Of a stretch of DNA of 39,751 nucleotides, positions 12,574 to 15,120 are shown in pieces. The stretch's first letter is position 1. Each line of letters starts with the position of its first letter. The translations under genes were made by a program, and so were the position numbers. The DNA comes from Chloroflexota bacterium (GTDB lineage: Bacteria > Chloroflexota > Chloroflexia > Chloroflexales > Roseiflexaceae). The stretch covers positions 1 to 39,751 of the forward strand of contig JACAEQ010000084.1 of the NCBI GenBank assembly GCA_013388755.1, written 5' to 3'. Below the pieces are notes generated by a model. The model did no database searches. It was not told where the DNA came from and was given only the letters and a program-made list of their open reading frames with translations.

Positions 12574-12631
12574 TAACAATTAGCAATGTACTCCACATAT
12601 AAGCTCGGTGATGAGCAGAAAGAGTAGCGTT

Positions 12632-13222
12632 ATGGCCATCACCCGCATTCTCGTGGCTGAAGATAACGATCTGGTTGCCCTCACGCTGGAGGAACAACTG
12701 AAAGGGCTGGGATATGATGTGATCGGCATCGCCCGCACCGGTACCGAGGCGATCGACCTGGCGACGCGACTCGGCCCGGATCTGATCATCATGGACATTC
12801 GGATGCCAGAAATGGAAGGCACCGAAGCAGCGGCGCGGATCAACCAGCAACGCCCGACACCAATTCTGATGCTGACGGCCTACACCGATCGCGAGACGAT
12901 CCGCAAGGCGGAAGCCGCCGGCGCGCTCGGCTACCTGGTCAAACCAGTCAACGAGGCGGATCTCTCGCCCGCGATCAATATCGCACTGGCGCGCTTCCGT
13001 GAACTTCAGGCATTGCGCGCCCAGGTGCATGAGCTTGAAGAGTCGCTGGAGGCGCGCAAATTGATCGAACGCGCCAAAGGCATTCTGATGCAACGCCTTG
13101 GCCTGAGCGAACGTGATGCATACGAACGGTTGCGTCAGCGCGCCCGTGACAAACGCGCCAAAATGAAGGATATCGCCCAGGCAATTATCGAAGCGGAAGA
13201 GTTGCTGGGCTCAGGATCGTGA
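12632..13222 (+). CDS. Response regulator with ANTAR RNA-binding output domain
   Basis: This encodes 196 residues. Residues 1-118 are a receiver domain with acidic pair E10/D11, phospho-acceptor Asp55 (DLIIMDIRMP), T82 and Lys104 (YLVKPV). A coiled helix (about 120-142) leads to an ANTAR domain (about 132-190; KLIERAKGILMQRLGLSERDAYERLRQRARDKRAKMKDIAQAII). ANTAR regulators act by binding paired hairpins in nascent RNA and preventing termination, so this is probably an antiterminator rather than a DNA-binding factor. The ATG at 12632 has AAAGAG upstream at good spacing; a GTG at 12608 is an alternative. No kinase is adjacent. The next transcription unit begins 4 bp after its stop with the aromatic attenuator leader. 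Confidence 0.92.
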   Translation: MAITRILVAEDNDLVALTLEEQLKGLGYDVIGIARTGTEAIDLATRLGPDLIIMDIRMPEMEGTEAAARINQQRPTPILMLTAYTDRETIRKAEAAGALGYLVKPVNEADLSPAINIALARFRELQALRAQVHELEESLEARKLIERAKGILMQRLGLSERDAYERLRQRARDKRAKMKDIAQAIIEAEELLGSGS

Positions 13223-13225
13223 TTA

Positions 13226-13254
13226 TTGACACCTTCCCATGCGTGTGGTATAGT
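13226..13254 (+). promoter_or_regulatory. Near-consensus promoter of the aromatic biosynthesis operon
   Basis: TTGACA (13226-13231) and TATAGT (13249-13254) are separated by exactly 17 bp. The start is predicted near 13261, giving a leader of about 185 nt before aroH. Confidence 0.85.
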
Positions 13255-13291
13255 CGCAGCACATTCGCCTGAACGTATCGTGAACGTATTC

Positions 13292-13372
13292 ATGCAGCCG
13301 CGCAGCAGCACCGCCTGGTTCTGGTACTACTTTACCAGCTCACAACGAGCCTGGTTGCTTCGCGTTGGCTGA
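13292..13372 (+). CDS. Aromatic leader peptide of the aroH-DAHP synthase attenuator
   Basis: A 26-codon open frame ends with TGA at 13370-13372. It encodes the run W9-F10-W11-Y12-Y13-F14 plus W21, so 7 of 26 residues are aromatic and all three aromatic amino acids are present. It lies between a strong promoter and a terminator hairpin ahead of chorismate mutase, the place expected for an attenuation leader peptide. Ribosome stalling at codons 9-14 (13316-13333) when charged Trp, Phe or Tyr tRNA is scarce would let the antiterminator form. The ribosome site is weak. An in-frame GTG at 13280 would add four residues, including one more Phe. Confidence 0.8.
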   Translation: MQPRSSTAWFWYYFTSSQRAWLLRVG

Positions 13373-13424
13373 ATGTACGGTGCGGGAACTCTGAAAGGCG
13401 TGGAGCAACAGGCTCCACGCCTTT
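13299..13424 (+). promoter_or_regulatory. Transcription attenuator responding to aromatic amino acids
   Basis: Alternative pairings can be drawn by eye. Region 1 (13299-13312) pairs with region 2 (13353-13364) through CGCG/CGCG, AGCA/TGCT and ACC/GGT. Region 2 (GUUGCUUCGCGUU, 13354-13366) can instead pair with region 3 (GGCGUGGAGCAAC, 13397-13409) in 13 consecutive pairs, four of them G.U. Region 3 is also the 5' arm of the terminator. A ribosome stalled on the aromatic codons would cover region 1 and favour 2:3, giving read-through. A ribosome reaching the stop codon covers region 2 and allows termination. This is the classic leader-peptide attenuation logic. Confidence 0.78.
13394..13424 (+). 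terminator. Attenuator terminator hairpin
   Basis: A perfect 13-bp stem (AAAGGCGTGGAGC and its complement) with an AACAG loop is followed by CTTGTTGT. It lies 22 bp before the chorismate mutase start, so it would stop transcription before the operon. Confidence 0.85.
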
Positions 13425-13445
13425 CTTGTTGTGCAGGAGTGCACC

Positions 13446-13829
13446 ATGACCATCTACTGCCGCGGTATTCGCGGCGCGACCACGTGCGACGAGAACACGC
13501 GCGAGTCGATCCTCGAGGCAACCCGGGAGTTGTTGCAGCGCATGATCACCGCCAATGGGATCCACACCGAGGATATCGCCAGCGCCATCTTCAGCACGAC
13601 ATCCGACCTGACGGCTGAATTCCCGGCGGTCGCCGCACGCGAGCTTGGCTGGCTCGATACCGCGTTGCTCTGCACCCACGAAATGGCCGTGCCCGGCAGC
13701 CTGCAACGCTGCATCCGCGTCTTGATTCACTGGAACACGCCACGCCGGGCCGATGAGATCATGCACGTGTACATCCGCGGCGCCCGCACCCTGCGCCCGG
13801 ACAGAACCGCGCTTCATGGGGCGGATTGA
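13446..13829 (+). CDS. aroH: Chorismate mutase, AroH type
   Basis: This 127-residue monofunctional chorismate mutase converts chorismate to prephenate, the first step towards Phe and Tyr. It matches the trimeric Bacillus AroH class: RGIRGATT at 6-13, the [12 protein letters not shown] segment, the catalytic Glu in HEMAVPGSL, the Arg in [10 protein letters not shown] and the Tyr in HVYIRGAR. The ATG at 13446 follows CAGGAG by 6 nt. The gene is the first structural gene behind the aromatic attenuator. The DAHP synthase gene follows after 151 bp (or 268 bp with the shorter start), so early and late steps of the pathway appear to be co-regulated. Confidence 0.95.
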
Positions 13830-14097
13830 TCAGGCGGCGGCGATGCTCCCCGCCGATCCTGGAAACCCGGAACGGCGCCGGGTGCCGGGAACACGCTCCT
13901 GGATCGCAGGGTGCCATCATTGCGTAGAGATTGTCGGCAGCTATGATCGCTTCGGAACAGTGCTCGAAAAGGAGCCTGCAATGACCACCCTGAACCTCGA
14001 ACCTGGCATACGACTGCGCCTGCGCCCGGCCATGCCGCGGCCCAGCGCTGGAGGGTACATTGAGCAACTCTTGCCGCTTGCAAAGGAGAACATTCCC

Positions 14098-15120
14098 ATG
14101 ATCGTCGTGATGCGCAGCAGCGCAACAGAGCAGGACCTGGCCGCAGTGATGGCGCGCCTCCGTGAGCACGGTCTCACCGGGCGAGTTACGTACGGCGAGG
14201 AGCGCAACATTATCGGCGTGATCGGCGCGACCATTCCGCCAACCCTGCGCGAGGAAATCGAACTGTTTCCTGGCGTCCAGGAGGCGGTGCGCATTACCCG
14301 CCCCTACAAACTCGCGGCGCGCGAGTTCCACCCCCAGGATACGATCGTGCACGTCGGCGATCTTGCGATTGGCGGCGGCTCGTGCGTGGTGATCGCCGGC
14401 CCATGTGCCGTTGAGAGCGAGGCGCAGATCATGGCGACGGCGATCGCCGTGCGTGAGGCTGGTGCGCATATGTTGCGCGGGGGCGCCTTCAAACCGCGCT
14501 CATCTCCCTATACCTTCCGCGGCCTTGGTGAAGCAGGCCTGCGCCTGCTGGCACAGGCCCGCGCCGAAACCGGCCTGCCGATCGTGACCGAGGTGATGAC
14601 GCCGACCGATGTTGAGCTGGTGGCGCGCTACGCGGACGTCTTGCAGATTGGCGCGCGGAACATGCAGAACTTTCAGTTGCTGGAAGAAGTCGGTCGCAGC
14701 GGCAAGCCGGTGCTTCTGAAACGCGGCATGTCGGCCACAGTCGAGGAATGGCTCCTTTCCGCCGAATATGTTATCGCTCAGGGCAACCCCGATGTCATTC
14801 TCTGCGAGCGTGGCATTCGCACCTTCGAGACCGCCACGCGCAACACGATGGATCTGAACGCGGTGGCGCTCGCCAAGCGCCGCAGCCACCTGCCGGTCAT
14901 CGCCGACCCGTCGCATGGCACCGGCAAATGGTACCTGGTGCCGCCACTGACGCTGGCATCGATCGCCGCCGGTGCCGACGGTGTGATTATTGAAGTACAT
15001 CCCGATCCTGACCGGGCGACATCCGACGGCGGGCAGTCGCTCACCTGTGAGAACTTCGCCGCGCTCATGCCACAGATGACGGCGCTGGCGCGCGCGCTGG
15101 GACGGCCGGGCGTGCGGTAA
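14098..15120 (+). CDS. aroF: 3-deoxy-7-phosphoheptulonate (DAHP) synthase, type I-beta with regulatory N-domain
   Basis: This 340-residue enzyme condenses phosphoenolpyruvate and erythrose 4-phosphate, the first step of the shikimate pathway. An N-terminal ferredoxin-like (ACT-like) domain (1-70, starting [14 protein letters not shown]) is typical of feedback-regulated I-beta enzymes such as that of Thermotoga. The barrel contains GPCAVES (101-107, metal ligand Cys103), [14 protein letters not shown] (127-140), [17 protein letters not shown], the metal-binding DPSHGTG and [13 protein letters not shown]. The start at 14098 fits the family length and has AAGGAG 9 nt upstream. A second in-frame ATG at 13981, with AAAAGGAG 6 nt upstream, would add 39 residues. 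The gap after aroH holds a possible intercistronic stem (13855-13859 with 13901-13905, inner CCCGG/CCGGG). Confidence 0.93.

Follow-up and report, generated by a model that had tools for sequence, protein, structure and literature searches.

What controls transcription into the aromatic-synthesis genes at this locus, and which aromatic amino acids would that control report? The original prediction, made on the window (the whole stretch of 39,751 nucleotides analysed here), described a leader-peptide transcription attenuator upstream of aroH, encoding a chorismate mutase, and of a DAHP synthase gene. We examined the locus and its counterparts in related genomes, together with the folding of the leader RNA and the amino acids encoded in the leader.

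Layout of the locus and its conservation in relatives

The locus reads in the order response regulator gene, promoter, leader ORF, terminator, aroH and DAHP synthase, and all features from the promoter onwards lie on the forward strand. The response regulator (12608-13222) carries an RNA-binding ANTAR domain (E 1.5e-20) and ends directly upstream of the leader promoter. The predicted consensus promoter is present at 13226..13254, as a sigma-70-type TTGACA-17-TATAGT with an extended -10 TG. It matches the consensus at 11 of 12 positions and is the sole promoter-like match across 12800-13700, where 0.2 would be expected. The predicted 26-codon leader was likewise recovered: the ORF MQPRSSTAWFWYYFTSSQRAWLLRVG* occupies 13292..13372 (ATG at 13292, TGA ending at 13372), with the aromatic run W F W Y Y F (W9-F10-W11-Y12-Y13-F14) as putative control codons at 13316..13333 and a further Trp codon, W21, outside the run. 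By inspection, a Shine-Dalgarno-like motif was not found upstream of this ATG. The intrinsic terminator hairpin stands at 13393..13425, its stem being 14 bp long rather than the 13 bp first counted, with a CAACA loop followed by the weak and imperfect U tract TTGTTGT. Both downstream genes were correctly named: Pfam matches identify an aroH-type chorismate mutase (CM_1, PF07736, E 7.7e-48; 13446..13829) and a DAHP synthase composed of a ferredoxin-like domain (FXD, PF18152, E 2.5e-16) and DAHP_synth_1 (PF00793, E 7.7e-81; 13982..15120, start ATG 13982 or 14099). About 150 bases (13830-13981), to which no feature is assigned, separate the aroH stop from the likely DAHP synthase start ATG 13982. 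The two genes are codirectional in all 68 relatives in which both were seen.

The terminator sits downstream of the response regulator stop, and we therefore asked whether an ordinary terminator of that gene had merely been joined by a chance ORF. Among the 826 short ORFs of the window (7-60 aa, both strands), the leader alone reaches 5 aromatic residues within 8 codons. CM_1 was detected in 126 of the 158 genomes of the class, and the DNA upstream of aroH was extracted for most of the genomes bearing it. A short ORF with an aromatic run precedes aroH in 72/74 loci at the level of the order, spanning four families and 31 genera; relatives bearing names include Roseiflexus, Chloroflexus, Kouleothrix and a Herpetosiphonaceae MAG. 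Thus the claim withstood a comparison that could have found the frame or its run missing from orthologous loci. A terminator hairpin follows the leader in nearly all of these loci (the exception is G024), and a promoter with a match of at least 9/12 lies upstream of every one of the 72 leaders, compared with 6/72 shuffled controls. Such conservation of frame, run and promoter, along with the single occurrence in the window, makes a chance ORF extremely improbable, and we rejected it. Among the families examined in the rest of the class, no ORF with at least 5 aromatics in 8 codons was seen. The two leaderless loci of the order belong to a single genus (g3; G058 and G059), in which aroH lies within a longer open frame. 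Upstream of this frame we observed a degenerate leader (MRGGSLSPLFVQFTYRAGR; L033, L197) and a terminator. In G059 the degenerate leader reads LFVQFTY and the terminator persists farther upstream, an apparent case of attenuator decay.

Regulatory proteins and structured RNAs offer other ways to govern such an operon. The response regulator could act on the transcript by ANTAR-mediated antitermination, leaving the leader ORF incidental, as the domain in the upstream gene and the adjacency of a gene of this type in 30/74 relatives might suggest. However, no such gene was found upstream in the remaining 44/74 loci, which reach only about 700 bases upstream and most of which still bear the leader. 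RNA targets of ANTAR proteins consist of tandem hairpins with hexaloops carrying A1 and G4, the second overlapping the terminator (PMC3369931). This hairpin pair is absent ahead of the terminator, where a single weak 4-bp candidate was the only one found, and control by ANTAR would leave the aromatic run unexplained. With no target motif and a neighbour that is not universal, we discarded this explanation as improbable. A T-box, a riboswitch or another described cis-acting RNA would also look like a regulatory leader before an amino-acid operon. Nevertheless, an Rfam search of the window returned no match at the gathering score and none that was meaningful at E up to 1; the best of the weak matches lies antisense to the hairpin. 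Likewise, the Rfam leader families and the T-box covariance models did not match the leader. The information conserved here consists of codons and of the terminator and antiterminator, and a described cis-RNA is even less probable than ANTAR control.

RNA helices and the proposed switch

Classical attenuation relies on RNA segments that compete for pairing, and the predicted set of 1:2, 2:3 and 3:4 helices was located in full. Segment 1 (ACCAGCTC, 13334..13341) is the 5' arm of the 1:2 anti-antiterminator and pairs with GAG-C-CTGGT at 13347-13355. Segment 2 (GAGCCTGGTTGCTTCGCGTT, 13347..13366), which contains Trp21, provides the 3' arm of 1:2 as well as the 5' arm of the antiterminator 2:3. 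The latter forms 13 pairs between 13354-13366 and 13397-13409, where segment 3 (GGCGTGGAGCAAC, 13397..13409) overlaps the 5' arm of the terminator, and 3:4 is the terminator itself. Compared with dinucleotide shuffles, the leader RNA has a folding energy 4.1 sd lower.

We measured covariation on an alignment of 47 leaders. For the terminator, 96.4% of cells are paired, and 8/14 pairs changed on both sides (73 cells); for the 1:2 helix, 80.9% of cells are paired and 5/8 pairs changed on both sides, in 24 cells compared with 12.5 in shuffles. Both helices exceed all 500 shuffles in changed cells and in covariation score. The antiterminator is paired in 87.4% of cells, mostly through invariance and G-U tolerance of a constant GCUUCGC, and compensatory change within the two main families is small (3 cells). 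Its duplex energy beats composition-matched shuffles (p<0.05) in 60/67 genomes, families with different sequences included; this set omits four g9 loci as well as G024, where no terminator hairpin was found. At this locus, then, are found a predicted short ORF with clustered codons for end products, an intrinsic terminator between it and the first gene, an antiterminator that competes with this terminator and is conserved rather than covarying, and a pause (anti-antiterminator) helix beside the control codons. Together, the leader, promoter, terminator and helices across relatives strongly support the view that the locus is a ribosome-mediated transcription attenuator of the trp/phe/his type acting on the aroH-DAHP synthase operon, a reading to which we assign a probability of roughly 0.87 on this comparative evidence.

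Ribosome stalling, readthrough and the identity of the amino acids that matter we infer from this arrangement. Transcription would start at about 13261 and a ribosome would translate the leader. When charged tRNA-Phe, tRNA-Tyr or, in the source lineage, tRNA-Trp is scarce, the ribosome would stall in W-F-W-Y-Y-F beside segment 1, leaving segment 2 to pair with the emerging segment 3, and the polymerase would enter aroH. When all aromatics are plentiful, the ribosome would reach the stop codon and cover segment 2, so that 3:4 forms and transcription ends near 13430. Folding models agree with this scheme, on the assumption that the ribosome footprint extends 11 bases downstream of the first nucleotide in the A-site codon. 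When the ribosome is placed at Y12-F14, the transcript made as far as segment 3 adopts 2:3 at about -23 to -25 kcal/mol; with the ribosome at W21 or at the stop, 2:3 cannot form and only the terminator can. The completed terminator surpasses the antiterminator in stability, so kinetics would have to decide between the two, as they do in known attenuators. For a ribosome at W9-W11, folding allows 1:2 to form alongside most of 2:3, which means that the two states of the switch do not fully exclude each other.

The prediction also listed another Trp codon, W21, which we rejected as a sensor. In five genomes segment 2 is read in another frame, and in a sixth it follows the stop codon. Segment 2 is thus kept as RNA and its reading frame is not, so the conserved A-W-L-L-R that includes W21 is best explained by RNA pairing. 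Moreover, a ribosome at W21 covers segment 2. The run would therefore be the sensor, and Trp21 merely part of segment 2. Early leader sequence at 13295-13310 and its counterparts in relatives (CGCGAAGC in Roseiflexus) is also complementary to segment 2. Such a segment could keep segment 2 closed when the leader is not translated; the complementarity reaches p<0.05 in just 14/71 loci, making this a minor lead.

Amino acids read by the leader

Sensing of Trp, Phe and Tyr together had been proposed, and the codons in the leaders of the order support this only in part. Both Phe and Tyr occur in the run of all 72 leaders, whereas Trp occurs in 15/72, distributed over 9/31 genera and 3 families, among them the source genus and g7, a genus to which named Roseiflexus MAGs belong. 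In frame, aromatic residues make up 76% of the run window, and the two alternative frames give 13% and 22%. Synonymous codons (TTT/TTC, TAT/TAC) are mixed freely as well, a pattern indicating selection for the codons in their reading frame. The reading conserved throughout the order is accordingly bivalent for Phe and Tyr; some lineages, the source genus among them, have Trp as well.

Whether the Trp codons take part in sensing is a closer question. It is possible, although we lean away from it, that the attenuator answers in practice to Phe alone, perhaps also to Tyr, and that the Trp codons of the run are passive, as reported for the Tyr codon of Corynebacterium aroR. The rarity of Trp beside the universal Phe and Tyr fits this explanation, as does the role of aroH, which leads to Phe and Tyr and not to Trp. 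In addition, C. glutamicum aroR encodes F-Y-F, yet availability of Tyr was reported to be without effect (PMC11802643). On the other hand, the change from a Phe or Tyr codon to a Trp codon takes two substitutions, and still the runs hold Trp 22 times, compared with one Cys and one Leu. This excess is suggestive only, the windows having been picked for aromatic content. Trp codons also recur across genera of separate families, and DAHP synthase feeds Trp as well. We consider the chances about even that a single leader does respond to a lack of Phe, Tyr or Trp alike, where the pathway begins and where it branches, as part of a family of Phe/Tyr attenuators that extends across Chloroflexota and has gained Trp codons several times. 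If the trivalent reading is true, sensor specificity could be followed as it evolves, one codon at a time, over an unchanging RNA switch. In several leaders whose run holds Trp, here at 13321-13338, CTGG at the Trp codon is complementary to the CCAG in segment 1, and Trp codons in the run may be doubly constrained through this pairing.

Spread of the leader and comparison with known attenuators

Within the source genome, no leader exceeding 3 aromatics per 8 codons was found upstream of two chorismate-binding enzymes, the prephenate dehydratase or a second DAHP synthase. This DAHP synthase paralogue (L178, G000:C59:1047-1931) has no aromatic leader in the 1 kb upstream. Of 400 Chloroflexota genomes, 53 contain matches to a covariance model of the leader, and 14 of these 53 lie outside the class. 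Several of the latter matches carry aromatic leaders (e.g. FYFYFYFGW, FFYAYFYG and FFYFWFSYF) with terminators, and precede a chorismate mutase and DAHP synthase, a chorismate mutase-prephenate dehydratase fusion or two tandem DAHP synthases; Pfam assignments of the downstream genes were made for three of these loci. Aromatic leaders also occur in named MAGs labelled Anaerolineae, Ardenticatenia and Aggregatilineales, and the Planctomycetes and Actinobacteria loci of the same scan showed none. One weak match of the model (L169) lies before an aspartate kinase-like ORF, where the leader-like ORF (HHYQYHDYDCAHATAVAS) is not clearly aromatic.

The enterobacterial pheA and trp leaders (pheL and trpL) each respond to one amino acid. 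Like them, the Chloroflexota leader joins control codons to competing 1:2, 2:3 and 3:4 helices; unlike them, it reads several aromatics, precedes different genes and has no match to an Rfam leader family. Multivalent attenuation, in which one leader reads several end products, operates in ilvGMEDA and thrABC; the multivalence is shared, but the codons there are branched-chain or Thr/Ile, not aromatic.

The original prediction had called the arrangement unusual, knowing of no description of it, and this needs qualifying. The closest described case is aroR-aroF of C. glutamicum, where a Phe-Tyr-Phe leader stands before a DAHP synthase gene and ribosome-mediated attenuation has been reported (Neshat et al. 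2014, via PMC11802643; PMC4046766), the reported response being to Phe and not to Tyr. In both systems the gene for DAHP synthase follows a leader with codons for Phe and Tyr. The actinobacterial leader lacks Trp, whereas the Chloroflexota locus has aroH first, a longer run and, in the source lineage, all three aromatics. Alongside it stands the uORFC-13-1 motif upstream of aroF in Acholeplasma, for which a Phe-coding uORF was predicted (PMC8632094). It shares the short ORF with Phe codon(s) and the terminator before DAHP synthase, and differs, by its description rather than by motif sequence, in being predicted for Phe only and in unrelated bacteria. Our literature search, which did not extend to the most relevant survey (Lopatovskaya et al. 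2010, PMID 20198868), found no aromatic attenuator described in Chloroflexota. What appears to be new here is a bivalent Phe/Tyr attenuator as the rule in these Chloroflexota, joined by Trp in certain lineages, built on a working principle that was already known.

A statement from 2010 held that leader-peptide attenuation was known only from Proteobacteria and Actinobacteria, to which Firmicutes were then added (PMC2965389). A deeply conserved attenuator in Chloroflexota suggests that the mechanism is much older or was repeatedly invented, and it implies working transcription-translation coupling in this phylum. The natural series of runs on one RNA scaffold (Phe and Tyr only, Phe, Tyr and Trp, mostly Tyr, mostly Phe) lends itself to direct tests of codon composition against sensing. 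In green non-sulphur bacteria and their relatives, the attenuator very probably switches on genes of aromatic synthesis when aromatic amino acids run short.
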